From: Phycisphaerae bacterium
Lineage (GTDB): Bacteria > Planctomycetota > Phycisphaerae > Phycisphaerales > SM1A02
Direction of reading: 5' to 3'
Assembly (NCBI GenBank): GCA_016873315.1
Contig: VGXL01000017.1
Coordinates: forward strand, 1 to 32,640
Length of the DNA stretch: 32,640 nt
A program made the translations under genes and the position numbers. Shown here piece after piece: positions 402 through 32,640 of the stretch. Numbering within the stretch: the first letter of the stretch is position 1; each line of letters begins with the position of its first letter. Under the pieces are notes generated by a model. It did no database searches. It was not told the origin of the DNA and worked only from the letters and a program-made list of their open reading frames with translations.

Positions 402-1169
402 ATGAGTGGTGCGCGGCCAGCCTCGAGCCGAGCGCCGTCAGCAGCGGATCCCCCGCGGCTGCCGCGGCACGTTGCGGTGATCATGGATGGCAACGGTCGA
501 TGGGCCGAAGCCCGGGGGCACTCCCGACTCATGGGGCATGCTGCAGGTGCGGAGCGTGCGAAAGAACTGACGGAACGCTGCGGGAAGCTCGGCATTGAGG
601 TGCTGACGCTGTACAGCTTCAGTGTCGAGAACTGGAAGCGGCCCGCCGACGAGGTGGCCGGCCTCATGGAGCTTGCCGCACTCCAATTGGCGGCGGAACG
701 CGAGGCGCTCGCGGCGAGCAATGTCCGGTTCCGGCACCTCGGCTCGCGACACGGTCTTCCCGCCCGGGTGCTCGACGAGTTGGACACGACCGAACGACGG
801 ACAGCGCACTGCTCAGGCCTGACGCTCTGTCTGGCGTTGAACTACGGGGCGCGTGATGAGATCGTCGCCGCGATGAGGTCCTTGGCCCTTGAGGTGGCTG
901 AAGGTCGGCTGTCGCCTGGTGACATCGACGAAGGGCTGGTCTCGTCCAGCCTCTCCACAGCAGGCTTGCCCGATCCTGATCTGGTGATCCGGACAGCGGG
1001 GGAGTCTCGGATGTCCAACTTCCTGCTCTGGCAGGTGTCCTACGCCGAGTTGCATGTCACGAGCGTGCTGTGGCCTGACTTTGATGCGGTTGCGCTTGAC
1101 GCGGCACTCGCCGACTATGCGGGCCGGACCCGCAAGTGGGGGCGTCTTGCAGGGCAGAAGGCATCGTGA
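402..1169 (+). CDS. uppS: Isoprenyl transferase (undecaprenyl diphosphate synthase family)
   Basis: This 255-residue cis-prenyltransferase condenses isopentenyl diphosphate units onto farnesyl diphosphate to make the C55 lipid carrier for cell-envelope polymers; it acts in the cytosol at the membrane. The family signature MDGNGRWA is at residues 28-35 with the Mg-binding Asp29, followed by the GH-x-x-G-type segment (LMGHAAGA), the SVENWKRP segment (the NW-R/K motif), and the C-terminal RTAGESRMSNFLLWQ and YAEL segments that bind substrate diphosphate. The length is normal for the family, with an Ala/Ser/Pro-rich extension of about 20 residues at the N-terminus. The ATG has a GGAG about 8 nt upstream (within 391-396), so this is a leadered gene. 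The assignment is secure; the exact product chain length (C55 or other) is not determined by the sequence alone. Confidence 0.95.
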   Translation: MSGARPASSRAPSAADPPRLPRHVAVIMDGNGRWAEARGHSRLMGHAAGAERAKELTERCGKLGIEVLTLYSFSVENWKRPADEVAGLMELAALQLAAEREALAASNVRFRHLGSRHGLPARVLDELDTTERRTAHCSGLTLCLALNYGARDEIVAAMRSLALEVAEGRLSPGDIDEGLVSSSLSTAGLPDPDLVIRTAGESRMSNFLLWQVSYAELHVTSVLWPDFDAVALDAALADYAGRTRKWGRLAGQKAS

Positions 1170-1254
1170 TGTTCACGATTGTGCCGAACTCACGCTGGCC
1201 TCCTCCCAGCGACCCCGTACACTTCATGAGTCCGTAGTTCTGACTCACCTCAAG

Positions 1255-4200
1255 ATGTTGCCCATGCCTGGCTTTCCTTGCCATCATGCCCTGCCGCGTG
1301 AGCTGCGACGGCTCACGCGGTTGGCGGCGGTGTCTTTCGCGGTTGGCCTTGCTGCTCTGGCGCCCCCGGCTGCGGATGCAGGTTCTTCCGTGTGTGACAG
1401 TGTCTTCGTCGGCGATCTCAACGGTGACAAGAAGGTCACGGTTGCTGATGTGGCCGTCTTCCAACAGCTGCGCGGGTCGGGCAGTTACTCCGCTTGCGCG
1501 GACTTCAACCGGGATGGCATCCTGAATGATGCCGATGGCACTGTGCTGTCGACGCTGGTGGACTTCAACAGCAGCACGATCAACGGTGGTGGCCAGTTCC
1601 GCGTACCGAACATTGCGCTGAACGAGATCCGGCTCGGCGTATCGTCCACAGCGACACCCCTCCAGCAACGCTACATCGAGTTGCGGGTCCCGCAGGACAG
1701 TTTCCCGAGTAACTACGCATGGAACGGCACGCTGCCGACCGGGTACACGCTGTTGATCATTGGGCGTGATCTTGATGATCAAGCCCTGACGGATCAGGGC
1801 GTCATCCTGCGAGCGATCGACCTGACCGGCATGCAGTTCCAGCGTGATGGTGAGTCCGCCGGCTACGCGCTGGTCCTGCAGGAGCAGGAACTTGGCTCGC
1901 CTCAGGTCTACAACCTGCCCACACCCAATATTCCCGTGCTGCGAACCCCGGAACTGGATCTGGGCGCGCCGTCCGACCTACTCATCGGCAATCCTGAGCA
2001 ACGCAACCTCACGGTGCTGCTGACTTACCGCCGGCCATTGTCATCCAGCCCCCCGTACGATCCCGTGGCGACAGAGCCTGAAGCGGGGAGCGACCTCGAT
2101 TCGGGGAATGCCTGTCGCCTGGTGGCGCGGCAGGTTTCAACCGATGCTGGCCCGCCGCCTTGGGATGTGATCATCGATGCGGTGAGCCTCAAGCGCACGC
2201 TGGTCAACAGCGATTCGGTCGGCTGCATCTACTGCCCGGCGCCCGACTACGCGGTGGGGCCGATTGCCGTTCCCAACGGTCACATCGAAGCCCCGCTTCA
2301 TGCTTGGCGCTGTGAGGGGACCGGCGCGGACGAAGGCCAGTGGCGCGCACTGATTCAGGATCCCGCATTCGGGGTGGATACCCCCGGCGCGACCAACCGT
2401 GCCTGCGACGATCTGGATTCCTTCTGTGGCGACCCGACAGCGGAGAGTTGCTTCATCGCTCATGCTGCGCCTTCCTGCAGCGATGCCGCGTGCTGCTCGG
2501 CCGTTTGCGAAGAGGATCCTGCATGCTGTGCCGTCGGTTGGGATCCTGACTGCGTCGACAGGGCAGCGGAAATCTGTCTTGCGTGCGGTGGATCCGGGGC
2601 TGGAGATTGCTTTGTTGAGAGCGACCTTCCGTACTGTGATGACCTTGAGTGCTGCGATTCCGTCTGTGACATCGATCCCCTCTGTTGCCAAACGGGGCTC
2701 TCGTGGGACGCACAGTGTGCGCAGATCGCACGGGAGGAATGCCTCAATTGCGGAGATCCTGTGGGCAACTGCTTCGTGCCCCATGTGCTTCCGAATTGCA
2801 ACGATCCTGCCTGCTGCAGTCTCGTTTGCAACGCGGATCCGATCTGCTGCACACTGACATGGGACACTCCCTGTGCTCTGTTTGCAATCCTGCGCTGCGA
2901 GCCGCTTGCGTGCGGATCACCAGTAGCTGGTGAGTGCTGCCAGTCCCACCCATCTCCGTTTTGCAACGATCCGGGGTGCTGCAAGGTCATCTGCGACCTA
3001 AATCCGTATTGCTGCGAGGTGCAATGGGATCTTTCGTGCGCCTTGAGCGCCGCTGACCTGTGTGTTTCCATTCAGTGCATTTGTGGTGCACCGGACGCAG
3101 GAGATTGTTTTGCACCGCATGCGGGCATTGGTTGCAGCGACCAGCAGTGCTGCGATCGGGTCTGCAGCATCGATGCATTCTGCTGCGCGGTGAGCTGGGA
3201 TGAGTCGTGTGTCAGGACGGTGGGCTTTGAGTGCGCACAGACACCCAGTTGTCAGCCTGTTTGGGGCATCCCCCCGTTCGGGAGCTGCTTGGTCGAGCAC
3301 CTCTCTCCCGGCTGCAATGACCCGGCATGCTGCGACGAGGTCTGTGCGATCAATCCGTTCTGCTGCGAAACCGTTTGGGATGCTCAGTGTGTCGATGATG
3401 CCGGCGCCTTCTGTTCGTCGTGCGGCGACATCGATGTCGACTCGTGCTTCGTCATTCACAGTCTTCCGACCTGCAACAATGAAGCGTGCTGCCTGAAGGT
3501 CTGCAGCATCGACTCGTACTGCTGCGAGTTCAGTTGGGACAGTTTGTGCGTCGGTCACGCCTACGGCGAGTGCCCGCCTGCTACGGAGACCTGCGGAGAC
3601 CCCGTGCTTCGACCTTGCTTCGTGGCATCGTCCTTGACAGGCTGCGAGGATGAGGATTGCTGCGCCGAGGTCTGCGGGAACTTGGATGCATCGTGCTGCG
3701 AGTACCAGTGGGATGCCATCTGCGCTGCGATCGCCTTCGAGGTCTGCACCCTGCCAGCGGGTTCTCAGGGAGCGAACGGGGATTGCCTCGCCCCCCACCC
3801 GACTCGAGGGTGCGCAAGTGGTCCATGCTCCGCAGCCGTGTGCAGCGTTGCGCCCGAGTGCTGTGCTGCGGGCTGGGACGAGCGATGTGTGACCATCGCC
3901 TTCGCAGTCTGTGTGTCCCCCAACACCTGCCCCGCCGAGGGATCGTGCTTCAGCCCCCACAACGGTCCAGGCTGCGACGATGCAACCTGCTGCAACTCCG
4001 TCTGCTCGTTCGATTCGAGCTGCTGCACCAACCGCTGGGACAGCGAGTGCAGCGCACTCGCTGACAACCTCTGCGTGGTCCAGGAGCCGGATTGGCGTTG
4101 CCCCTGCATCGGCAGTTGCTTCAATCCCCATCCCGACACGCCCGGCTGCGAGGACTATTCGTGCTGCTCCGCCGTGTGCGCCGAGTTGCCAGACTGCTGC

Positions 4201-5493
4201 ACGGTGGGCTGGGACCTTGCGTGTTCGACGCTGGCCCGACAACGCTGCTGCGGCCCGGTCGGTTGTGGCAGCGGCTGCAACGGTTCATGCCTCGAGTCGC
4301 ACGGTACGCCGTTCTGTGATGAGCCGTATTGCTGTGCAGCGGTGTGTGCGCTCCTGCCATACTGCTGCGAGGCGTTCTGGGATCAGGGTTGCGTCGACAT
4401 CGCTGCTGAGCGTTGCGCAGTCGGCTGTGGTTCGCCGTACGGCCAGAGTTGCTTCTCGCCTGCCAAGGGAACGCCTGGCTGCAATGACATCGCGTGCTGT
4501 CGCTTGGTCTGCGACATCGATTCGTACTGCTGTGAGTTTGAATGGGACGATGTGTGTGCGCAGTTGGCGTTCGGGGTGTGCAACGTCCCCAACTGCTCCG
4601 ATCCAGGATTGGGCGATTGTTGCAGCGTCCACAATGGACCATGGTGCTCCGATACCGCGTGCTGCGAAGCGGTGTGTGCAGCTGATTCGTTCTGTTGCGA
4701 AGTGATCTGGGATGAGTTCTGCGTCAGTGGGACCTATGAGTTCGACGGGGCATGCGGCTGTCTCTTGGAGTGTGGTGATGTGTGCGCAGAGAGCTGCTGC
4801 ACGCCCCACTTCGCACCAAGGTGCAACGACCTCGTGTGCTGCACCGAGGTGTGCATGCAAGATGAGGTTTGCTGTGATACAGAATGGGACCAGGTGTGCG
4901 CGGAACTTGCGGGCAACCTGTGCGACGGTAGTGACGGTGGTAGTGACGCATGCCCGCCCCCGTGCGGCCTTCCTGAGTACGGCTCGTGCTGCGTGCCGCA
5001 TGGAACACCAGGGTGCGAAGATCTTGCGTGTTGCACCGAGATCTGCAAGATTGATCCGTTCTGCTGTGACGGAATCTGGGATGCCACCTGCGCCAAGCAA
5101 GCGGGATCGGAGTGCTCGGTGTGCTCGGGCGGTGGCGGATTGACCTGCGGCGCCTCGCAAGCTGGTTCCTGCTTTGAGGTGCACACCAATCCGTACTGCG
5201 ACTTCGAGGCGTGCTGCCTCCTGACCTGCAAGTTCATCCCCGAGTGCTGCTCGGTCGGGTGGGATCAATCCTGCGTGGCGTTTGCCGAGAGCGAATGCAG
5301 TGCCTTCGCCGGTGCCAACGCGTTCCCCCCGACGGTGGATGAACTGCGGCGCCAGCGGGGACTTCGTGACGGACGCCCCAAGCGGAAGATCCGTTCACTG
5401 CTGCCTCAGTTGCAGCGCGGTCAGGCCTTGGACGGCGGCCTGTTGGCACCACCGGCGTCGGTGCCGCCCAGTCTCTCCAATACCGTCAAGTGA
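1255..5493 (+). CDS. Giant secreted cysteine-rich repeat protein with dockerin-like EF-hands
   Basis: This 1412-residue exported protein is of unknown function. Residues 1-42 form a signal peptide (basic n-region, hydrophobic LAAVSFAVGLAALAPP, cleavage after ADA). A dockerin-like pair of calcium loops follows: DLNGDKKVTVAD (54-65) and DFNRDGILNDAD (83-94). Residues about 120-385 are beta-rich, beginning NEIRLG and QRYIELR, which resembles a lamin-tail-like domain (tentative). Residues 391-1348 hold 17 tandem copies of a unit of about 56 residues, each with about ten cysteines and the core CCxxVC, then CC-x3-WD-x2-C. The last 64 residues are basic and proline-rich and show no PEP-CTERM or LPXTG sorting signal. 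ATG 1255 was chosen because the reading frame upstream lies inside uppS; ATG 1264 is equally possible, and neither has a clear ribosome binding site. A TACACT hexamer at 1218-1223 is a possible -10. A structural, disulfide-stabilised surface or matrix role is likely but unproven. Confidence 0.9.
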   Translation: MLPMPGFPCHHALPRELRRLTRLAAVSFAVGLAALAPPAADAGSSVCDSVFVGDLNGDKKVTVADVAVFQQLRGSGSYSACADFNRDGILNDADGTVLSTLVDFNSSTINGGGQFRVPNIALNEIRLGVSSTATPLQQRYIELRVPQDSFPSNYAWNGTLPTGYTLLIIGRDLDDQALTDQGVILRAIDLTGMQFQRDGESAGYALVLQEQELGSPQVYNLPTPNIPVLRTPELDLGAPSDLLIGNPEQRNLTVLLTYRRPLSSSPPYDPVATEPEAGSDLDSGNACRLVARQVSTDAGPPPWDVIIDAVSLKRTLVNSDSVGCIYCPAPDYAVGPIAVPNGHIEAPLHAWRCEGTGADEGQWRALIQDPAFGVDTPGATNRACDDLDSFCGDPTAESCFIAHAAPSCSDAACCSAVCEEDPACCAVGWDPDCVDRAAEICLACGGSGAGDCFVESDLPYCDDLECCDSVCDIDPLCCQTGLSWDAQCAQIAREECLNCGDPVGNCFVPHVLPNCNDPACCSLVCNADPICCTLTWDTPCALFAILRCEPLACGSPVAGECCQSHPSPFCNDPGCCKVICDLNPYCCEVQWDLSCALSAADLCVSIQCICGAPDAGDCFAPHAGIGCSDQQCCDRVCSIDAFCCAVSWDESCVRTVGFECAQTPSCQPVWGIPPFGSCLVEHLSPGCNDPACCDEVCAINPFCCETVWDAQCVDDAGAFCSSCGDIDVDSCFVIHSLPTCNNEACCLKVCSIDSYCCEFSWDSLCVGHAYGECPPATETCGDPVLRPCFVASSLTGCEDEDCCAEVCGNLDASCCEYQWDAICAAIAFEVCTLPAGSQGANGDCLAPHPTRGCASGPCSAAVCSVAPECCAAGWDERCVTIAFAVCVSPNTCPAEGSCFSPHNGPGCDDATCCNSVCSFDSSCCTNRWDSECSALADNLCVVQEPDWRCPCIGSCFNPHPDTPGCEDYSCCSAVCAELPDCCTVGWDLACSTLARQRCCGPVGCGSGCNGSCLESHGTPFCDEPYCCAAVCALLPYCCEAFWDQGCVDIAAERCAVGCGSPYGQSCFSPAKGTPGCNDIACCRLVCDIDSYCCEFEWDDVCAQLAFGVCNVPNCSDPGLGDCCSVHNGPWCSDTACCEAVCAADSFCCEVIWDEFCVSGTYEFDGACGCLLECGDVCAESCCTPHFAPRCNDLVCCTEVCMQDEVCCDTEWDQVCAELAGNLCDGSDGGSDACPPPCGLPEYGSCCVPHGTPGCEDLACCTEICKIDPFCCDGIWDATCAKQAGSECSVCSGGGGLTCGASQAGSCFEVHTNPYCDFEACCLLTCKFIPECCSVGWDQSCVAFAESECSAFAGANAFPPTVDELRRQRGLRDGRPKRKIRSLLPQLQRGQALDGGLLAPPASVPPSLSNTVK
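2425..5298 (+). repeat. 17 tandem ten-cysteine repeats (protein-level)
   Basis: Seventeen units occupy residues 391-1348 of the secreted protein. A typical unit has single cysteines at the start, then C-F/C before a H-x(2)-P-x-C segment, a CC pair, VC, another CC pair, WD-x2-C and a closing C after an alanine-rich helix-like stretch. All 17 copies keep the WD-x2-C element. The DNA copies are diverged, so the repeats are old rather than a recent slippage product. Deviations: unit 9 has lost one cysteine of the first CC pair (GPCSAAVC), unit 2 has an extra residue before WD, and units 4 and 14-16 have CC instead of CF near the start. Confidence 0.9.
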
Positions 5494-23736: not shown

Positions 23737-23765
23737 GAATCAGCTGATCGATTCAGTTGTTTGAC
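23737..23765 (+). terminator. Weak hairpin with T-rich tail after the HIT gene
   Basis: GAATC (23737-23741) pairs with GATTC (23750-23754) around the palindromic ATCAGCTGAT, followed by AGTTGTTTG. The stem is short and the tail is interrupted, so this is a weak candidate for ending the MazG-HIT transcript. It overlaps the stop codon of the convergent flavoprotein gene. Confidence 0.3.
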
Positions 23766-25030
23766 TCAGCGATCGGCGCGATGGCCCGGGCCGCCGCTTG
23801 GCCTGCGATCCACCCAGTCGCCCACGCCCACTGAAAGTTAAAGCCGCCGATGCGGCCATCGACATCGAGTACTTCGCCGCAGAGGGACAGCCCTGGACAA
23901 GTCAGGCTCTCCATCGTGCCAAGATCGACCTCGTCGATCGGGACGCCGCCGGCGGTGACTTCCGCGTAGGTGAAGCCACGATCGCCTTGGATCGGCAACT
24001 CGGTGGCGACGAGCAACTCGACAAGCGTTCGACGACTCTCGCGCGGCGTCTGCTGAACGGTGGCGTCATGCGCGAGTCGTGCCTGCGTCAGGATCGCGCG
24101 CGAGAGCCGTTCGGGGAGTCGTTCGCGAAGCACGCCGAGCAGGCCTCGACCCTTGGAGGCGAGCAGCCAAGCATCGGTCGCATCGGCCGATTCACCTGGC
24201 ATCCAATTCAGGATGAGCGTGGTCCCGGGTTCGCGGTCGCGCGCATCGAGCAAGTAGCGACTGATGTCGAGCACGCTCGGTCCGCTGAGTCCGAAGTGTG
24301 TGCACAGCGTGCTGTTCGCAAAGTGCACCAGTCGCTTGCCGGTCGGTCCGCGCAGCACGAGCTCGGCGTGCACCGTGAGTCCGCTGAGCTCCGTGATCCA
24401 GTGCCCGCTCGGGAGCGTGAGCGGGACGAGGGCCGGGCGGATCGCTGGGGTCAGCGAGTGTCCGAGCGACTTCGCGAATTCGTAGCCCGCGCCATCCGAT
24501 CCGCTGCGCGGGAGCGCCATGCCACCGGTCGCCAGAATCACGCGCGTGGCGCGCATCGAGCCCCACTCGCCGCTGATCGTGAAGCCCTGCGCGCCGCGGT
24601 TGATGCCGGTGACGCGCGCGGGATGCACGATCGACGCGCCCACATCATCGACCGCGCGCAGCAGAGCATTGAGCACCGTGCGCGCGCTGTCCGTGACCGG
24701 GAAGAGTTTGCCGGTCTCTTCGCGCTTGAGTTCGACGCCAAGGTCATTGAAGAAGTTCACCGTCTCGTCCGCACCGAAACGCCTGAGCACACTGCGCACA
24801 GCGGGGCGGTTGACGGCGTACTCCGCTTCGGTCACGCGCCAGTGCGTGACATTGCACCGGCCGCCCCCGGCCACCAGGATCTTGGCTCCGAGCGTTCGCG
24901 CGCCATCGAGCGCGACGATCGAGCCCGAGGCTCCGTTCGCCCGGAGCGCGCGCCCTGCGGCGACGGCGGCCATCAGGCCAGCCGCGCCGGCACCGACGAT
25001 GCACACATCCGTCGCGGCTGGCACGATCAC
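23753..25030 (-). CDS. BaiN/HI0933 (YhiN)-family FAD-dependent oxidoreductase
   Basis: This 425-residue flavoprotein has an N-terminal FAD-binding VGAGAAGLMAA (12-22), then GAKILVAGGGRCNVTH (the family hallmark GxKxxxxGxGRCN), ATGGMALPRSGSDGAGY in the middle, and a C-terminal VTAGGVPIDEVDLGTMES and GLSLCGEVLDVDGRIGGFNFQWAWATG. These make the HI0933 family assignment firm. Members are implicated in reductive steps on varied substrates; no substrate can be named here. The start is GTG at 25028-25030, overlapping the stop of the carboxypeptidase gene in GTGA, so it is the last gene of the six-gene unit and is probably translationally coupled to the M14 gene. Confidence 0.92.
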   Translation of the reverse strand: MIVPAATDVCIVGAGAAGLMAAVAAGRALRANGASGSIVALDGARTLGAKILVAGGGRCNVTHWRVTEAEYAVNRPAVRSVLRRFGADETVNFFNDLGVELKREETGKLFPVTDSARTVLNALLRAVDDVGASIVHPARVTGINRGAQGFTISGEWGSMRATRVILATGGMALPRSGSDGAGYEFAKSLGHSLTPAIRPALVPLTLPSGHWITELSGLTVHAELVLRGPTGKRLVHFANSTLCTHFGLSGPSVLDISRYLLDARDREPGTTLILNWMPGESADATDAWLLASKGRGLLGVLRERLPERLSRAILTQARLAHDATVQQTPRESRRTLVELLVATELPIQGDRGFTYAEVTAGGVPIDEVDLGTMESLTCPGLSLCGEVLDVDGRIGGFNFQWAWATGWIAGQAAARAIAPIAESNN

Positions 25031-26778
25031 GGCGCGACCGTCTCCTGCAACACGACCTCAAGTTCAAGCGGCCGTGCCTTCTGGCTCTCGTACCGAACCC
25101 GCGCGATCGAGCCTGCGCCTGCTCGCACGATGAACCGGAAGACCGTCGAACGCAGGCCGGGAATGCCGCGTTCGACCCGCAGCCGACTCGGTTCCGCTTT
25201 CGCTGGCGTGAAGGTGCGATCGAGCACGCCGCCCTCGGCAATGCCGCCGGCCACCACGGCGCCGGCGGGATCGCCGAGCCCGACCGTCATGAGATCGGGC
25301 AGAGCGATGCCCCGTTCCGCAGCGCGGCCGGTCCGGGTCGGAATGTGTCGATCGTTGCAGATCTCGACCGACATGTCCCACACACCTTCGCCGAGCGAGC
25401 GCACGCGAGTGTTCCCCGCCCGCAGGAGCGGCATCTGGCTTGCGTGGAAGGTCGTGAACGCGAAGTTGCGGTGGCACTCTTCCTCGAGCATGAAGTGCGG
25501 CGTCACGCGGCTGGACCACTTGTTCTGCCCACCCACGAGCACGGTGCCGAGCGTTGGATGTTGAATTTCCGTCCAGTCTTTGAAGGTGCGGCCGAAGAGG
25601 ACATCGTCCCGCCATCGGGTCCGCTGCTCCTCGGTGGGATCCGATCCACTTTGCATGATGCGGTCGTCGGTCCAGAGTTCGTTGGTGAACGAGACGATGC
25701 CCAGGCCCTCGGCGGTCCAGTTCACGAAGCCGCCATGAACGGTGTAGAGATCCTTGTAGATGATCATCGGGCGGTACCCGGGCAGCATCTGCGCACCTGC
25801 TGCGGCGATGGCGTCATAGGCGGCGCGATCGCTCGCTGGATACGCGGACTCGTTGTACTGGGCCCCGGGACCGCGCAAGATCATGCCACCGGCGTTGTGA
25901 TAGCTCTGCACGGCGGCGATGTTCGGCCGGGCCAAGATGAACTCCGCAATGCACCGAGTCTCTGGATACGAAAGCGGCCACGGTCCGGCGCCGTGCTGCA
26001 CATGGTCGGGCTGCCAGTCGCTGGGCCAATTGCGATTCATGTCGTATCCACCTTGACCGTCTTCGTTCACGCGGCCGTCGCCGTCGTTGTCGATGCCTTC
26101 TTCGCCGGCGGAACTCCACTCGCCGCGCTCGGTCGTGCCATCAGGACGGGGCTCGCGCGACACGGGAATGAAACTGCGCGGATCCCGCGGATCGCGTCGG
26201 TGCGTGCCGTTGGGGTCCTTGCGCCACATCTGCCCGATGGACCCGTCGCCATCCAGGTCATCGGGTCCATCTTCATCGACTTCGCCGTCGTGGTCGTTGT
26301 CGAACGGCTGCAGCCCCGTGCGATTGGAGTGGGGCGTGTTGGGCTTGCTGAACCACTCATCGCGTCCATCGGGATTCACGCTCGGGCAAAGGTAGAAGAC
26401 GGACCGATCGATGAGCTCCGTGAGCTCCGGAACCTGCCCGTGTGCATTGCACAGGGCATCGAGCGTGTAGCCCACGACCTCGCCAGCTTGCACCTCGTTG
26501 CCGTGGACATTTCCGTCGATCCACATCGCAGGCTTCGACGCTTCGGCGCCCGTCGCAGGGTTGTTCACGATGGCCACGACCATCGGCCGGCCGAGCGCGC
26601 TCTTGCCGATCTCTTCAATGCGGACGAGGTTCGGCGAACGGGCGGCGATCTGCCGCACGGCATCGAGCAACTCGTCATAGTCGCGGTAGCGATTCCACGC
26701 GATGCCGCTCTTGCTTGGAAGGGCATCCTGCGGAGCGAGCGTCACGGCGGCGATCACGATCATGGGAACCATCACCAT
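25027..26778 (-). CDS. Secreted M14 zinc carboxypeptidase, catalytically intact
   Basis: This 583-residue protein has a short signal-like N-terminus (VPMIVIAAVTLA). The M14 active site is complete: HGNE gives zinc ligands His92 and Glu95, NPDGRD (135-140) and MNRNW (247-251) line the substrate pocket, the third zinc ligand is His294 in SYHNAGG, and the catalytic Glu367 is in FTNELW. It should remove C-terminal residues or cleave peptidoglycan-type peptides outside the cytoplasm. Two insertions carry calcium-loop-like acidic runs (DNDHDGEVDEDG at 160-171, DNDGDGRVNEDG at 230-241). ATG 26778 has a perfect AAGGAGG (26785-26791) 6 nt upstream and overlaps the end of the preceding gene. The C-terminal 150 residues form an extra beta-type domain. 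Confidence 0.9.
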   Translation of the reverse strand: MVMVPMIVIAAVTLAPQDALPSKSGIAWNRYRDYDELLDAVRQIAARSPNLVRIEEIGKSALGRPMVVAIVNNPATGAEASKPAMWIDGNVHGNEVQAGEVVGYTLDALCNAHGQVPELTELIDRSVFYLCPSVNPDGRDEWFSKPNTPHSNRTGLQPFDNDHDGEVDEDGPDDLDGDGSIGQMWRKDPNGTHRRDPRDPRSFIPVSREPRPDGTTERGEWSSAGEEGIDNDGDGRVNEDGQGGYDMNRNWPSDWQPDHVQHGAGPWPLSYPETRCIAEFILARPNIAAVQSYHNAGGMILRGPGAQYNESAYPASDRAAYDAIAAAGAQMLPGYRPMIIYKDLYTVHGGFVNWTAEGLGIVSFTNELWTDDRIMQSGSDPTEEQRTRWRDDVLFGRTFKDWTEIQHPTLGTVLVGGQNKWSSRVTPHFMLEEECHRNFAFTTFHASQMPLLRAGNTRVRSLGEGVWDMSVEICNDRHIPTRTGRAAERGIALPDLMTVGLGDPAGAVVAGGIAEGGVLDRTFTPAKAEPSRLRVERGIPGLRSTVFRFIVRAGAGSIARVRYESQKARPLELEVVLQETVAP

Positions 26779-28547
26779 GTCCAGCCTCCTTCGAGGACGC
26801 GGCCGCCAAGCTGGAGCGAGTCGTCGTCCACGATGATGCGGTCGTAGCGTCCGTTCGGAGCGTGCATGTCGATCTCGATGTGCGTCTTCGGAGCGCGTCG
26901 CACCGTCCACGAAACACTCGCTCGCGAACCGGGGTCGAGTCGTTCGATCCGGCGCTCGATGCTGCCGGCGAGCAAGGCCTCGACACCGACCTTGGCGCGC
27001 AGGCGAAGCGGCCCAATCGCATCGTTGGTCCTAGCCATGGCCGTCGTCATCGGCATGCGTCCATCGTTGACCAGGTCGACCGTGATTTCGGTCACGCCCG
27101 GCGCGACTTCGCGAGCCTTGACGCGCTCCACATGCACACGAGCCGATTCACCAGCGAGCGCGGCAACGAATCGAGCGTGTTTGGTGATGAGATCTGGGAG
27201 CATCGCGCTCGGCGGTTCAGTCCGGAAGCCAGGCACCCAGCCGCCGATCTCGACCTTGCCCAGCGTGGGATGGTCGAAGGACTTCCAGGGAAGGAAGCCG
27301 CGGCCGCCCTGATCGCGGTCGCTCCATGCCAGCCACGCAGCCGCGTCTTCGTCGACGGGCTTGGGAGCGTCCTTCTTTTCCTCGGGCGGCGGCGATGGAT
27401 CCGGCCGTTGCCAGAGTTGGCTGCAGAAGGTCGGCAGTCCGCGGTGCGCATAGCACCACGCAGCGAACGATCCCTCGTGCGTGGCATCTCGGGCGCGTTC
27501 GATCCCGGTCGATTCGCGATAGAGCTTGCCGATGCGTTCGTAGAGACCCTTGTCCTCGCCATCGATGAAGACCGGCGTACGACCTGTGATGTCGCGGCGC
27601 TCGTGGTTTGGGGTTCGCGCGAGCGAATCTTGGCGGCCGAGCACATAGACGGCACCAACTCCTGGATGGGCGCGTACGAACTCCGCGAGCGCTTTGGCTT
27701 CAGGCGCTTCAAGGGGAAAACGCCCAGCATCCGCAGCGAATTCGCGCCAAAGATGCGGAAAGTTTGCATCCATCGTGATGCCGCCGACGGCGTCCTCGCC
27801 CACGCTGCCATCGGCGTCGCGGTCGAGCGACTCGGTCAGCAACGAGAAGGTCGCGAGTTGCCCGTTGTCGCGATCGGGTGCACGATCGAGCCGCGCATCC
27901 GCTGGATCAGCGACGAGCGTGGCTGGGGCATCGGAAGGGCAGTCGAGTCGACGCATCATCGCGATCACACCGTCGCCGTTGATGTCGCACGGTGCGTCCT
28001 CGTCGAGGCGGCCATCCCGGTCATCATCGACGCGCGCACCGACGCGACCGGCCAGCTCCTGCGGACGGGCCACGCCCACGGCCCACGCATCGGGGTTGGC
28101 GACGGGGATCACCCACAGGTCCAGCGCATCGAGCACGGTCCGTGCATCGATGGCCGCGCGTGACTCCATCGCGAATCGCTCGGCGATGCCGGCAGCAACC
28201 AAGCTGCCGGACCGATGCCAACCATCGAGCCCCGCCACGATGAGCACGGTGGGGATCGGCACTTTTCGATTGGGCTGGTTCGTCACATGCACGGCATGGA
28301 TCGCGCGGCCGGATGTGCTCGTTCCGATCGAGGTCAGCGTCACCTTGCCGTCGCTCGCAGCGGCGAGTCGCTGGAGTGTCTGTTCGAACGCCTCGATCGA
28401 GACGAGTTCACCGAAGCTCGTTGACGGCGCTTCTGGCTTGGTCGGCTCTGTGGCTGGGACCGGAGCGGGCGCGGCGGCGTCCTGCGTTGGCGCCGCTGCA
28501 TCCTGCATGAACGCGAGGTGGAGGATGGCGAGCGAAGCGATCATCAT
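26772..28547 (-). CDS. M14 carboxypeptidase-like protein lacking all zinc ligands (pseudoenzyme)
   Basis: This 591-residue protein is built like its downstream neighbour, with the same domain order and the same D-x-D-x-D-G insertions, but without an active site. Aligned by eye, the HxxE zinc motif becomes G109-WH-R112, the third zinc histidine becomes Gly304 (YVLGRQ), MNRNW becomes MDANF and the catalytic Glu becomes Gln377 (CSQLW). The NPD and LW anchors remain, which supports the alignment. A short hydrophobic signal (MMIASLAILHLAFM) is followed by a proline/alanine linker with two QDAAAP copies. GAAGGAAGG lies just before ATG 28547, 12 nt after the DUF3299 stop. It may bind peptides or regulate the active M14 partner. 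Confidence 0.82.
   Translation of the reverse strand: MMIASLAILHLAFMQDAAAPTQDAAAPAPVPATEPTKPEAPSTSFGELVSIEAFEQTLQRLAAASDGKVTLTSIGTSTSGRAIHAVHVTNQPNRKVPIPTVLIVAGLDGWHRSGSLVAAGIAERFAMESRAAIDARTVLDALDLWVIPVANPDAWAVGVARPQELAGRVGARVDDDRDGRLDEDAPCDINGDGVIAMMRRLDCPSDAPATLVADPADARLDRAPDRDNGQLATFSLLTESLDRDADGSVGEDAVGGITMDANFPHLWREFAADAGRFPLEAPEAKALAEFVRAHPGVGAVYVLGRQDSLARTPNHERRDITGRTPVFIDGEDKGLYERIGKLYRESTGIERARDATHEGSFAAWCYAHRGLPTFCSQLWQRPDPSPPPEEKKDAPKPVDEDAAAWLAWSDRDQGGRGFLPWKSFDHPTLGKVEIGGWVPGFRTEPPSAMLPDLITKHARFVAALAGESARVHVERVKAREVAPGVTEITVDLVNDGRMPMTTAMARTNDAIGPLRLRAKVGVEALLAGSIERRIERLDPGSRASVSWTVRRAPKTHIEIDMHAPNGRYDRIIVDDDSLQLGGRVLEGGWTW
26785..26791 (-). promoter_or_regulatory. Strong Shine-Dalgarno (AAGGAGG) for the active M14 gene
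   Basis: The sequence lies inside the 3' end of the pseudoenzyme gene, 6 nt before ATG 26778. It decides between three nearby in-frame starts (ATG 26778, GTG 26775, ATG 26772) and predicts good translation of the active peptidase independent of coupling. Confidence 0.75.
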
Positions 28548-28559
28548 GGGGACCTTCCT

Positions 28560-29312
28560 TCACATGTCCTGCGAAAGCGTGGCTTCATCCATCAGGTACA
28601 GGCCAACGAGCCATCGTTCCATCACATACGGCTGCACTCGGAAGATGCCGGTGATCGATGCGAACCGGATCTGGTGCTTCAAGCCGACCTCCACCGGCGC
28701 GCGGAGCTTCACCTCGACCGCGTCGTACGGCGAGGGCGGTACGCCGATGCAGCAGCCGTCCCATTGATTGAGCATAGCGAGGAGTTCGTCGGACTCCGTC
28801 GAGACAATCGGGAAGGCGATGTAGCCGGCGATCGTGACCCACTTGTCGTGCAGCATCGCGATGCGCTGTGGAATGATCTTCTCGCTGAGCCGTGGGACAT
28901 AGGTGTTCGAACTGCTCTGCAGGAGGTCCCACGAGACTTCGTACGGATCTTCCTTCGTGCCCGAACCGCGAATGATGAAGTTGCCGTCGGCGACGATCTC
29001 GCCGTCCTCCTGCTTCAGCATGCCGGCCTTGACTGTTGCGTCGTTGATGCGCGCGTCGAGCCCAACCGACAGGCCGCCTTCGGGTGCCTTGTCGGGTTCG
29101 CGAGCGGGTGCGTTCGCTGCAGCGTTGGTCTCCGTGTCCGACCTCGTCCCGCGTGGTGCGGCCGTCGAGCCACCGCGCATGGGCAGGTCAATCGATCGCC
29201 CGATTGTGTTCACTGCGTCCATCGCCGGCGGCGAATCTGCGCCCTCTGGTGCAAGGAGAATCCATGCGCCAGCGGCGAGGAGGATGGCGAGCAGCGCCCA
29301 GAAGAGCTTCAT
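28560..29312 (-). CDS. DUF3299 domain membrane-anchored protein
   Basis: This 250-residue protein has one N-terminal membrane helix or signal anchor (residues 3-21), a disordered Ala/Arg/Thr-rich linker and a C-terminal DUF3299 domain (about 130-235). The domain shows WVTIAGYIAFP, then a variable stretch, and the hallmark GCCIGVPPSPYDAVEVKL. DUF3299 is of unknown function but is often encoded beside LolD/FtsX-type ABC transporters; that co-occurrence is recalled, not checked. The gene starts 8 nt after the permease stop and ends 12 nt before the M14 pseudoenzyme, so it sits in the middle of one transcription unit. A GAGG lies very close to the ATG. Confidence 0.85.
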   Translation of the reverse strand: MKLFWALLAILLAAGAWILLAPEGADSPPAMDAVNTIGRSIDLPMRGGSTAAPRGTRSDTETNAAANAPAREPDKAPEGGLSVGLDARINDATVKAGMLKQEDGEIVADGNFIIRGSGTKEDPYEVSWDLLQSSSNTYVPRLSEKIIPQRIAMLHDKWVTIAGYIAFPIVSTESDELLAMLNQWDGCCIGVPPSPYDAVEVKLRAPVEVGLKHQIRFASITGIFRVQPYVMERWLVGLYLMDEATLSQDM

Positions 29313-29320
29313 GGCCTCGA

Positions 29321-30622
29321 TCAGCCCAGTGGGCGCAGGCCCTGCACGACGGCCGTGCGGTACGCGCGGAGTGCAGGAACGATGCCTGCGGCGCACGCCA
29401 AGAACGTGGCTGCCGCGGCACAGAGCACGATCGTGCGAAGGTCCATCGTCGGATCGATCACGAGACCCACACGACGCTGCAGCTCGGCGCTCGCAACCGT
29501 GCCGAAAACGGCAGCGAGCGCGACCCCGAGCCCCGAACCAAGCAGACCGATGATCGCACTCTCAGCGAGCACGAGTCCGAACACGCGACCTTGGCTCGCA
29601 CCGAGGACGCGCAGGATCGCCACCTGTCGGCGTCGCAAATCCATGCTGTTGTAGAGCGCAAGCATGACGCTGAGCGCACCAGCGACCATGACCGCGACGG
29701 CCATGGCGATGAAGAGCGTGTCGACGCCGCTGACGATTTCAAAGAGCCGCCCGACCTGTTGGGCAGGTTGCGCGACCGTGAAGGGGAACTGTCGACGCAA
29801 CAAATCGAACGCAACCGGGAGCGCGCTGCTGACTTGTTCGCCGGGTCGCGTCGGGACGCGGAGCAGGATTCCCGTGATGAGCTTCTCGCTGTCGCGCAAG
29901 TCCTCGGCAGCGACATGGAGATGCCCGTGGTCGTCCTCGCCGGGATTCGCGGCGGCGGCCTCCTTCAAGCGAGCTTCCTCGGCGTGAACGCACCAGCCGG
30001 TCTCGAGGCTGGTGAAAATCGCGCGGTCGTGCGCGCTGCCGGTCGGCGCGAGGATGCCCACGACCTCGACCGGGTGGTCGTCGTGTTCGTGCGCGGCCTC
30101 ACCGCTCGCGGTGCCGACGCCGTGAGCCAGCACGAGTTCGGAACCAACCTTGAGACCGTGCACGCGTGCCGCTTCCGCACCGACCACTGCTTCGTAGGGA
30201 GCTTCGAAGGCCTTGCCTGCAACAAACATCCAAGGTTGCCCGAGCACTGGCTCGAAGTTCGTGAAGAACTCCTTGCTCGTCGCCATCACCGGGGAGCCAC
30301 GGAAGCTGTCGCCCAACTGCGTCGGAATCGTCCACGACCAAGGGAACGCCTCGCGGATCTTCATGTACGCGGCCCAGTCGATCGGCTGCGACGGCGCGTT
30401 GGCGTAGAACATGCCGTTGAGGACCGCGACGAGCGGGCTCGAGTCCGCACTCACGAGCAGGTGCACATTGCCGGTGCCGCGACGGAAAGCTGCTCGACCC
30501 GCATCGCGCATGGCGAGCAGCACGAGCAAGAGCGCCACGCTGACGGCGACCATCGTCACGGTCACCGTGGTCGAAAATCGGCGCAGCGACAAGCTGCGCA
30601 GGACGATCGTGAAGTCGGTCAT
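29321..30622 (-). CDS. FtsX/MacB-type ABC transporter permease with histidine-rich loop
   Basis: This 433-residue permease has one N-terminal helix (about 19-38), a large extracytoplasmic domain (about 40-295) and three C-terminal helices (about 300-325, 350-375, 397-418): the FtsX/MacB layout. The loop contains HEHDDH (178-183) and HGHLH (232-236), an unusual density of histidine that suggests metal binding. EVVGILAPTGSAHDRAIFTSLE is a segment characteristic of a permease subgroup encoded with DUF3299 proteins. The ATG overlaps the stop of the ATPase gene (ATGA at 30619-30622) and has GGAGG 7-8 nt upstream. It probably works with the neighbouring ATPase in mechanotransmission or substrate extraction. 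Confidence 0.88.
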   Translation of the reverse strand: MTDFTIVLRSLSLRRFSTTVTVTMVAVSVALLLVLLAMRDAGRAAFRRGTGNVHLLVSADSSPLVAVLNGMFYANAPSQPIDWAAYMKIREAFPWSWTIPTQLGDSFRGSPVMATSKEFFTNFEPVLGQPWMFVAGKAFEAPYEAVVGAEAARVHGLKVGSELVLAHGVGTASGEAAHEHDDHPVEVVGILAPTGSAHDRAIFTSLETGWCVHAEEARLKEAAAANPGEDDHGHLHVAAEDLRDSEKLITGILLRVPTRPGEQVSSALPVAFDLLRRQFPFTVAQPAQQVGRLFEIVSGVDTLFIAMAVAVMVAGALSVMLALYNSMDLRRRQVAILRVLGASQGRVFGLVLAESAIIGLLGSGLGVALAAVFGTVASAELQRRVGLVIDPTMDLRTIVLCAAAATFLACAAGIVPALRAYRTAVVQGLRPLG

Positions 30623-31275
30623 CGTGCTGCCTCCGCATGGCCCAACTCGATCACACGGCTGAAGTGGGCGCGCAGTGAGGGATCGTGGCTGGTGCAGAGC
30701 AGCGCAGCGCCGTGATCCCGACACGCGCGCTGGAGCAGTCCGATGGCGGTCGCCGCATTCGCGGGGTCAAGGCTCGCCGTCGGTTCGTCCGCCAGGACGA
30801 GGCTCGGCCTGCACGCCAGCGCGCGCGCGACGGCGACGCGCTGCTGCTGCCCAACGCTCATCGTTTCAACGGCTTGATCGGGCAGTTCAATGCCGAGTTC
30901 GGCCAAGAGCGCCCGTGCGCGCGAATCATGCGTTGCCGCAGGGATCGAACTGAACATCATGGCCACCATCAAGTTCTCGCTCGCTGAAAACCCGTGGAGC
31001 AGGTTGAAAGTTTGAAAGACCATGCCGATTGATGCGCCGCGGAACGCATCGCGCGTCGCCCCGCGCAGCGATTCCATCGGCGTGCCGGCGACGGTGATGG
31101 ACCCCGCGTCGGGATCCTCGAGTCCGGCGATCAGGTGCAAGAGCGTGCTCTTTCCACCGCCCGAGGGCGCGACCAGAAGTGCTTGCTCGCCTTGCGCAAG
31201 GGTGAGTGTGGGGACCGAGAGGTTGAAGCCACCCGGGCGGGTGAGCTCAAGACCAGTGATGGAGAGGGCATGCAC
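30619..31275 (-). CDS. ABC transporter ATP-binding protein (LolD/MacB type)
   Basis: This 218-residue ATPase is of the LolD/MacB group. Walker A is APSGGGKST (36-44), with Ala in place of the first Gly. The Q-loop is VFQTFNLL (86-93), the signature is MSVGQQQR (139-146) instead of LSGGQ, Walker B is LVLADEPT (159-166) and the H-loop is CTSHDP. The small substitutions are compatible with activity. The start is GTG 31273-31275, with TACCAT ending 9 nt upstream and no ribosome binding site. It is the first gene of a six-gene unit running to 23753. Only 20 bp separate it from recG, so read-through from recG is also possible. Confidence 0.9.
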   Translation of the reverse strand: MHALSITGLELTRPGGFNLSVPTLTLAQGEQALLVAPSGGGKSTLLHLIAGLEDPDAGSITVAGTPMESLRGATRDAFRGASIGMVFQTFNLLHGFSASENLMVAMMFSSIPAATHDSRARALLAELGIELPDQAVETMSVGQQQRVAVARALACRPSLVLADEPTASLDPANAATAIGLLQRACRDHGAALLCTSHDPSLRAHFSRVIELGHAEAAR

Positions 31276-31295: not shown

Positions 31296-32640
31296 CTAGC
31301 CCACATCGGCCAGTCCGAGCGCGTCGCCGTAGGTCGACATGAGTTTGCGGCGAAGGCGCGCATCAATGGGATCCGAGAACGACGGCGAGGCGTCGATCGC
31401 GCGTTGAGCTTCATCGCGCGCGGCAAGCAGCAGCGCGGTGTCGCGCGTCAAGTCGGCCACACGCAGCGGTGGCAATCCACTCTGCCGTGTGCCGAAGAAC
31501 TCGCCCGGTCCGCGGAGCTTCAGGTCTTCCTCGGCAATCTCGAAGCCGTCGGTCGTGCTGGCCATCGACTTCAGACGACGCTCACCGTCGTCGGCCGTTG
31601 GATCCCCAATGAGCACACACAAGCTCGCCTTTGAACCGCGTCCCACGCGTCCACGGAGTTGGTGCAACTGCGCCAGCCCGAACCGCTCGGCGTGCTCGAC
31701 GATCATGACCGTGGCGTTGGGCACATCCACACCGACCTCGATGACGACCGTGCTCACCAAGACACTGGTGCGGCCGTCCTTGAAGGCACTCATGACGGCA
31801 TCGCGCTCGGCCGGGGCGAGCCGTCCGTGCATCTGCCCGATCGACAGACCGGCGAATGGACCTGCCTCGAGCGCAGCCGCGTGGCTCGCGACATCCGCCA
31901 GGCCTTGATCGCTCTCCTCGACCGCGGGCACCACGACATAGACCTGTTCACCTCGATCGATGCGCGTGCGGGCGTAGGCGTACACCTCGGTGGACCTCGA
32001 GCGTGGCATCACACGCGTGGCGATCGGCTGGCGTCCGGGAGGCAGAGCGCGAATCGAGCTCACATCGAGATCGCCAAAGAGTGTGAGCGAGAGCGTGCGC
32101 GGGATCGGCGTGGCCGTCATCACCAGCATGTGCGGCATGTGACCGTTGCCCTTGGAGCGAAGGGCTGCGCGCTGCTCGACGCCGAAGCGGTGCTGCTCGT
32201 CGATGACCGCTAGCGCGAGACTGTGGAACTGAACCCCCTCACCGAGCAAGGCGTGCGTGCCGATCGCCAAATCGACCTGGCCACCCGCGAGGGCGGCGTT
32301 CGCTTCAGTTCGCTCGCGCGGCGACAGCGATCCCGTCACGAGTTGGAACCGCACGCGACTGTCGCGTAAGAGCGCAACCACATTTCGGAAGTGTTGCTCA
32401 GCAAGAAGTTCAGTCGGCGCCACGATGGCGGCCTGGTGGCCGTGCGCAATGGCGAGGAGCGCCGCGTAGAGCGCCACCGCCGTCTTGCCCGAGCCCACAT
32501 CACCTTGCACGAGCCGATTCATCGGTGCAGTGCCCGCGAGGTCGTTCGCAATCTCGTCGCACACCGCACTCTGGTCGGGCGTGAGGATGAAGGGGAATCG
32601 CTCGATGATCGCCTGGTGGATCGCCTCGGTCCTCGGCAGC
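31296..32640 (-). CDS. recG: ATP-dependent DNA helicase RecG (N-terminal part outside the window)
   Basis: The C-terminal 447 residues of RecG are present; the wedge domain lies beyond the right edge. The helicase motifs are in order: LTPDQ before motif I, GDVGSGKT (motif I), APTELLAEQH (Ia), GTHALL (Ib), VIDEQHRFGVEQR (II, DEQH), MTATPIPRTL (III), then VVPAVEESDQ (IV), STVVIEVGVDVPNATVMI (V) and QLRGRVGRG (VI). The TRG region follows (LKLRGPGEFFGTRQSGLP) and is complete. RecG remodels stalled replication forks and branched DNA. The gene ends 20 bp before the GTG of the ABC ATPase gene on the same strand. Confidence 0.96.
   Translation of the reverse strand, partial: LPRTEAIHQAIIERFPFILTPDQSAVCDEIANDLAGTAPMNRLVQGDVGSGKTAVALYAALLAIAHGHQAAIVAPTELLAEQHFRNVVALLRDSRVRFQLVTGSLSPRERTEANAALAGGQVDLAIGTHALLGEGVQFHSLALAVIDEQHRFGVEQRAALRSKGNGHMPHMLVMTATPIPRTLSLTLFGDLDVSSIRALPPGRQPIATRVMPRSRSTEVYAYARTRIDRGEQVYVVVPAVEESDQGLADVASHAAALEAGPFAGLSIGQMHGRLAPAERDAVMSAFKDGRTSVLVSTVVIEVGVDVPNATVMIVEHAERFGLAQLHQLRGRVGRGSKASLCVLIGDPTADDGERRLKSMASTTDGFEIAEEDLKLRGPGEFFGTRQSGLPPLRVADLTRDTALLLAARDEAQRAIDASPSFSDPIDARLRRKLMSTYGDALGLADVG

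Follow-up and report, generated by a model that had tools for sequence, protein, structure and literature searches.

A Zrg-type transporter without ZrgA and an M14 peptidase pair in one gene run of a Phycisphaerae bacterium

We analyzed a 32,640-nt stretch (the window) which is the entire contig C17 (VGXL01000017.1) of a 2.42-Mb, 95.4% complete genome of a Phycisphaerae bacterium (GCA_016873315.1). The window carries six tightly coupled minus-strand genes, encoding an ATP-binding cassette (ABC) ATPase, a permease, a DUF3299 protein, an inactive M14 pseudopeptidase, an active M14 carboxypeptidase and a BaiN-type flavoprotein. This layout, as well as two histidine clusters in the permease, had been described in an earlier note on this DNA and is confirmed by gene calls, Pfam and the sequence. 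Our analysis shows that the first three genes form a Zrg-type, MacB-fold ABC system without ZrgA, and that the operon looks like a young, lineage-specific union of two separately inherited modules. The overall reading we favor, with a probability of about 0.55, is that of a ZrgA-less Zrg-type system with a metal site in its permease and a separately inherited M14 pair, joined behind recG.

Two modules behind recG

A scan with a 14-row permease alignment, covering one genome per species, found 220 relatives, of which the best 80 were retained. The nearest loci are mostly planctomycete metagenome-assembled genomes by title, with a few titled as other groups or as uncultured bacterium. The gene order extends beyond this genome, since all six genes occur in order in 26 of the 47 retained loci that have at least 6.5 kb of downstream flank. 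The other 21 comprise 18 loci with ATPase, permease and DUF3299 only, two with BaiN directly behind DUF3299 and no M14 pair, and one with all genes except BaiN. The ATPase adjoins the permease in all 78 relatives that have 800 nt or more of upstream flank, DUF3299 does so in 69/70 with a downstream flank of 1.2 kb or more, and BaiN lies behind the M14 pair in 26/27 loci that have the pair and enough flank. In all 26 six-gene loci, an in-frame start is present at −4 nt for ATPase to permease, at −4 or −1 for pseudopeptidase to active M14, and between −4 and +7 for active M14 to BaiN. These spacings are the smallest possible gaps because the start nearest the previous stop was chosen.

To compare the distribution of the two modules, we used a single set of 151 genomes from the order (permease at E≤1e-40, pseudopeptidase at E≤1e-30, active M14 at E≤1e-60). 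The permease was found in 75 genomes, and the pseudopeptidase and the active M14 in 74 each. Both modules are present in 54 genomes, the M14 pair only in 20, the permease only in 21, and neither in 56. One of the pair-only genomes (G035) has its DUF3299 gene at a contig end, which possibly explains the missing permease. When neighbors are defined as genes on the same strand and within 3 kb, the modules are neighbors in 24 of the 54 genomes with both, all in the family of the window and spread over 10 genus codes. In the other 30 they are apart, including G157, where the permease is 270 nt from a contig end and the placement is ambiguous. Phylum-wide, judged by eye, the active M14 occurs in 60 and the permease in 70 of 246 genomes, with both in 21; M14 lies near the permease only in the genome of the window, and many of these assemblies consist of short contigs. 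Therefore, the pair-only, permease-only and separated genomes make the operon seem a young union of two modules, and this transporter does not seem necessary for the M14 peptidases.

The earlier note had proposed that the transporter and the DUF3299 protein provide metal to, or exert mechanical control over, the secreted M14 pair; the pair would then be their client, in an FtsEX-like or metal-loading manner. As a fixed, obligate system this is not supported by the distribution, as 20/74 pair genomes have no permease match, 21/75 permease genomes have no pair, and neighbors are found in only 24/54. We regard this view as unlikely. It is favored by the 24 genomes and 10 genus codes with neighboring modules, by the overlaps and short gaps kept in the 26 six-gene loci, by a co-occurrence of the modules in 54 genomes against about 37 predicted from the totals (computed by hand), and by FtsX and LolE being among the fold relatives of the permease. 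However, besides the uneven distribution, two loci have BaiN behind the transporter without M14, and 20 M14 pairs fetched elsewhere shared no unlabeled neighbor cluster in more than two loci (rough codon-score gene calls).

An ordinary housekeeping run, in which unrelated genes are co-expressed behind recG and share no function, is about equally improbable. In its favor, recG lies directly upstream in 38 of the 70 relatives that have 2.5 kb or more of upstream flank, a PP-loop (TilS-like) gene precedes the transporter in family f4, and BaiN-type flavoproteins are widespread. However, order and overlaps persist although the M14 proteins of other genera are only 33–61% identical to those of the window. 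In a quick permease tree (51 rows, 48 labeled), the label "M14 beside permease" needs four changes, at least two of them forced by starred branches, compared with 15.6 in shuffles, although kinship alone clusters labels. The recG label needs two changes. The history of the linkage is unsure because of long branches and open forks in this tree.

The coordinates are given in Table 1. The ATPase and permease genes overlap by 4 nt, gaps of 8 nt and 12 nt precede the DUF3299 and pseudopeptidase genes, the two M14 genes overlap by 7 nt, and the active M14 and BaiN genes by 4 nt. The recG gene, which the earlier note did not list, ends on the same strand at 31296, 20 nt before the ATPase gene, and the run therefore contains at least seven genes. 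Its 5' start lies outside our view because the window is a complete contig. As a fragment, recG scores below the full-length cut-off of 718 bits. Elsewhere in the window, on the plus strand (1054–5493), a very long cysteine-rich repeat reading frame of 1479 aa has many CC-containing repeats.

Table 1. Features of the recG-linked gene run in the window.
Feature	Position	Strand	Basis
recG, C-terminal 447 aa, cut by contig end	31296..32639	-	NCBIfam RecG models, best 659.4 bits
ABC ATPase (ZrgC/PA4064-like), GTG start	30619..31275	-	Pfam ABC_tran 106.5 bits
MacB-fold permease (ZrgB/PA4065-like), 433 aa	29321..30622	-	Pfam FtsX 52.1 bits (cut-off 25.5), MacB_PCD 39.5 bits (cut-off 27)
Permease HEHDDH codons (H178-H183)	30074..30091	-	Sequence
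Permease HGHLH codons (H232-H236)	29915..29929	-	Sequence
DUF3299 (ZrgE/PA4066-like) protein, 250 aa	28560..29312	-	Pfam 17.0 bits, under cut-off; model match to PA4066
M14 pseudopeptidase, 591 aa	26772..28547	-	Pfam Peptidase_M14 48.3 bits
M14 carboxypeptidase, 583 aa, with a signal peptide judged by eye	25027..26778	-	Pfam Peptidase_M14 146.5 bits
BaiN/HI0933-type flavoprotein	23753..25030	-	Pfam HI0933_like 240.3 bits; TIGR00275 362.1 bits (cut-off 183.8)

The Zrg-type transporter and its permease histidines

The ATPase, the MacB-like permease and the DUF3299 gene lie in one run, as in Zrg-type loci. Zinc depletion raises zrgA-E of Vibrio parahaemolyticus 76- to 206-fold, and zrgE, zrgB and zrgC correspond to DUF3299, permease and ATPase, respectively (PMC9817125, Table 1). 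The order DUF2796-ATPase-permease-DUF3299 is found on a Pseudomonas aeruginosa plasmid and a Rhodobacteraceae plasmid, whose permeases are 30.0% and 27.5% identical to that of the window, respectively. Thus, the tabulated gene assignments and the equal gene order on the P. aeruginosa plasmid bear out the link to Zrg loci which the earlier note had suggested. ZrgA (DUF2796, PF10986) was over the cut-off in none of 61 genomes, with one sub-cut-off fragment in G053.

The permease is of the MacB/FtsX type by its FtsX and MacB_PCD domains and by its fold. Its model has a mean predicted local distance difference test (pLDDT) score of 92.4, with 5xu1, MacB (5gko) and LolE as best PDB matches and LolC, FtsX, YbbAP and the haem exporter HrtB as further fold relatives. 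Membership in LolCDE was rejected, as the NCBIfam scores reach 150.9 of 307.75 bits for LolD and 25.8 of 362.45 bits for LolCE. The DUF3299 model (mean pLDDT 83.6) has a single PDB match at E≤0.001, which is 4hsp (PA4066; E 8.6e-5, template modeling score 0.52 by target length), and the protein thus has the PA4066 fold. A WDGCCIG motif is invariant in the alignment of 36 rows, and the N-terminal helix 2–20 may, judging by the model, be a membrane anchor. A search of plasmids with the DUF3299 protein of the window gave no match. A PF11736 search of the own genome also gave no match, but as the controls were silent too, this is not counted as absence. The portion of PMC8561739 available to us leaves the role of PA4066 open.

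Several related loci vary this theme. The DUF3299 protein of some relatives carries a Trypsin_2 domain at its N-terminus, scoring 35.0 bits in L069 (7980–9308; over the cut-off of 27.6) and 23.5 bits in L037 (8534–9964; under it). The usual catalytic serine motif is by eye missing, and the domain is perhaps another dead peptidase. A second DUF3299-like gene (G000:C14 22374–22769; L070:8366–8953) has no Pfam hit at E≤0.01 and overlaps a type I phosphodiesterase gene (PF01663; L070:8950–10371), and such a phosphodiesterase precedes the DUF3299-like gene in 8/10 fetched loci without an adjoining permease (loci chosen by the DUF3299-like gene; rough gene calls). Deinococcus radiodurans MP1 (L152:3737–6044) has a related ATPase and permease, which are preceded by a small hypothetical gene and lie downstream of a gene for alkaline phosphatase; neither DUF3299 nor DUF2796 is annotated among the neighbors. 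A scan of IMG/VR with the permease gave eight pattern matches, none of which was confirmed.

Permease histidines were counted in the window and the 80 relatives (n=81, near-copies included). H167, H178, H180, H198 and H213 are invariant in 81/81, and H54 is present in 77. The conservation which the earlier note expected of its two loop clusters therefore holds for H178 and H180 in HEHDDH, but not for H183 (27/81) or for HGHLH, where H232, H234 and H236 are found in 29, 43 and 30 of the 81, respectively. HGHLH was rejected as a conserved metal site on these counts. Some relatives have long histidine-rich inserts at the HGHLH place.

Part of the invariant set reaches far beyond the clade. Three Zrg-like outgroups carry H167, H180, H213 and D199, but not H178 or H198. 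Among 20 phylum-wide permease loci, hand-picked from matches in 70 genomes and based on rough gene calls, the residue is His at H167 in 19, His at H180 in 19 and Asp at D199 in 20, while His is at 213 in three and two residues later in 17. Of these 20 permeases, 13 have a neighboring DUF3299-profile hit at E≤0.01, with a score of 20 bits or less in four cases. At the aligned places, the conserved histidines are missing from E. coli MacB, LolC and LolE, in what is a remote alignment. The invariant histidines are a candidate metal site that fits this conservation pattern.

Short histidine-rich (7–10%) genes were seen beside distant planctomycete permeases (L190:6219–6701, L192:3977–4546, L203:5999–6532 and L204:4267–4818; rough gene calls). 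None of the four has a Pfam family over the cut-off, and one gives a faint ZrgA hint (14.1 of 27.4 bits). They are perhaps stand-ins for ZrgA.

The M14 pair

The active and the inactive M14 protein are homologous along most of their length (hhalign E 3e-61 over 516 columns) and differ at the catalytic residues. In the active protein, the zinc ligands, the two arginines and the catalytic glutamate (H92, E95, R139, R249, H294 and E367) are kept in 36/36 sequences, and its PDB relatives are carboxypeptidase T and a carboxypeptidase GP180 domain, which we take to be carboxypeptidase D. The pseudopeptidase has D108 in place of the first ligand and F263 in place of the arginine of the NR motif in 39/39 sequences, and its catalytic position holds Gln (18), Asn (9), Thr (7), Ser (4) or a gap (1), so that zinc ligands and catalytic glutamate are lost in all 39. 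Its Asp-rich loops are kept. The division into a dead and an active member made in the earlier note is thus upheld column by column.

The two genes are inherited together. In the 151 genomes, the pseudopeptidase and active M14 sets are identical (74/151), and the pseudopeptidase lies upstream on the same strand and contig in 74/74, with 35–167 nt between profile matches; its match was split in two in 13/74 genomes, where we took the piece closer to the active gene. These results support a pseudoenzyme partnership. The closest described parallel we found is the inactive third domain of carboxypeptidase D, as presented in the accessible part of PMC11266112.

Three arrangements of the pair are of separate interest. 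In G023 (L063:9504–13211), a single open frame of 1,255 codons encodes both domains. In G037, a weak permease-like frame is divergent from the pair. In G054 (L159:7234–11998), a ZnuA gene (PF01297, 173.9 bits) precedes the pair on the same strand at a distance of about 225 nt.

Proposed mechanism and comparison with known systems

In the mechanism we propose, the ATPase would drive the four-helix permease, whose outside domain would bear its own divalent-metal site of H167, H180, H213 and D199, to which this clade adds H178 and H198. The OB-fold DUF3299 protein would act beside the permease, and ATP-driven movement of the outside domain (mechanotransmission) would handle, at the outer face of the membrane, either a Zn- or Co-like metal or a metal complex. 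The permease site might thereby take over part of the role that ZrgA has elsewhere. The secreted M14 carboxypeptidase has Asp-rich loops which perhaps bind Ca, and the co-inherited pseudopeptidase would most likely steady, place or regulate it, as has been suggested for the third, inactive domain of carboxypeptidase D. One run behind recG would give rise to both modules in this lineage, probably as one transcript. The M14 enzyme may benefit from this handling of metal without needing this transporter, i.e., it would not be an obligate client.

The metal link of the transporter is supported by its Zrg relation and residue pattern, whereas the literature on its homologues is divided. Two studies argue for zinc acquisition through ZrgA in Vibrio (PMC9820375; PMC9817125, both in the parts available). 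In P. aeruginosa, the corresponding extract of PMC11481552 models PA4064-PA4065 as MacB, argues for pyochelin-cobalt export and likewise reports reduced growth at low zinc. The mode of action of Zrg/PA4063-4066 is therefore debated between zinc uptake and cobalt-pyochelin export.

Several observations weigh against the reading we favor. In the same extract, the P. aeruginosa homologue mutant has no further fall in zinc content and contains more cobalt; therefore, zinc uptake is perhaps the wrong job (PMC11481552). For control by Zur, which would be putative here, the FUR family has no match in the own genome, though it is matched in 9/10 genomes searched, and this genome also has one ZnuA-type gene and one ZIP gene. 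The DUF3299 score of 17.0 bits is below the PF11736 gathering score of 22; tested relatives reach 19.2, 19.2, 20.7, 21.8, 32.2 and 37.4 bits, and L037, L070 and L187 have no hit. For the permease, residues 171–180, including H178 and H180, are modeled at a pLDDT of 64, a LolE histidine aligns with D199 in the remote E. coli alignment, and the meeting of the invariant residues in space is putative. The best active M14 match has one stop codon in 4/74 genomes (G080, G086, G099 and G151). Lastly, the modules co-occur above expectation (Fisher P 2e-8, inflated by genome kinship), which leaves room for a real transporter-M14 link; the P value is not relied on because the genomes are related.

The ZnuA-type gene of the genome (L179:2296–4019) is divergent from a frame which presumably encodes a DtxR/MntR regulator. 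Between the two lies a GAGTTTGA-n4-TCAAACTC-like palindrome in the genus sequences examined, and the ZnuA-type gene may serve manganese. A metal-regulator site shared with this gene was rejected for the run, as the palindrome with up to three mismatches has no match in the window.

Another explanation is that the ZrgA-less permease serves as the receptor for metal in a machine powered by ATP, which would not import the metal but load it into extracytoplasmic proteins; DUF3299 proteins, with their CC motif, would be relay chaperones and neighboring proteins the metal-loaded clients. The proposed clients are the M14 carboxypeptidase here and the type I phosphodiesterase in eight of the ten loci described above. 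If true, this would reconcile the exporter-like fold with a role in zinc starvation. However, as these loci were chosen by the DUF3299-like gene and two of the ten have no phosphodiesterase, we regard it as very unlikely. Even less probable is lipoprotein release or other mechanotransmission without metal, with purely structural permease histidines, which would suit the closest solved folds (5xu1, MacB and LolE/LolC, also YbbAP and HrtB) but is opposed by scores far below the NCBIfam LolD and LolCE cut-offs, by a histidine set not found in E. coli MacB, LolC and LolE, and by the Zrg gene order with its DUF3299 partner.

The permease histidines shared between Planctomycetota and Pseudomonadota, and not seen in the three E. 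coli proteins, offer a direct mutational test of how Zrg/PA4063-4066 systems work. The M14 pair, together and adjacent in 74/74 genomes, is a clean bacterial model for the retention of dead peptidases. In the open-licence literature, we found no account of the six-gene operon, of the permease histidines or of a bacterial M14 pair.

Among known systems, P. aeruginosa PA4063-PA4066 has the same order of ATPase, MacB-fold permease and DUF3299 (plasmid copy; PMC11481552, part available), and its permease has the same H167, H180, H213 and D199. In contrast, the run in the window has no ZrgA (DUF2796) gene, has two more invariant permease histidines and a CC motif in DUF3299, and continues with the M14 pair and BaiN. 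Vibrio zrgABCDE shares the zrgC ATPase, zrgB permease and zrgE DUF3299 (PMC9817125 and PMC9820375, in the parts available). The run in the window, for which zinc control is putative, has no zrgA over the cut-off and no zrgD, and is linked to recG. The MacB and LolCDE ABC systems share the permease fold, but the six genes of the window include no adaptor gene, score below the Lol cut-offs and have other residues in the outside domain. Finally, carboxypeptidase D likewise keeps active M14 domains with an inactive one (PMC11266112, accessible part), while the pair described here is bacterial, is encoded by two genes (one frame in G023), has Asp-rich insertions and places the dead member first.

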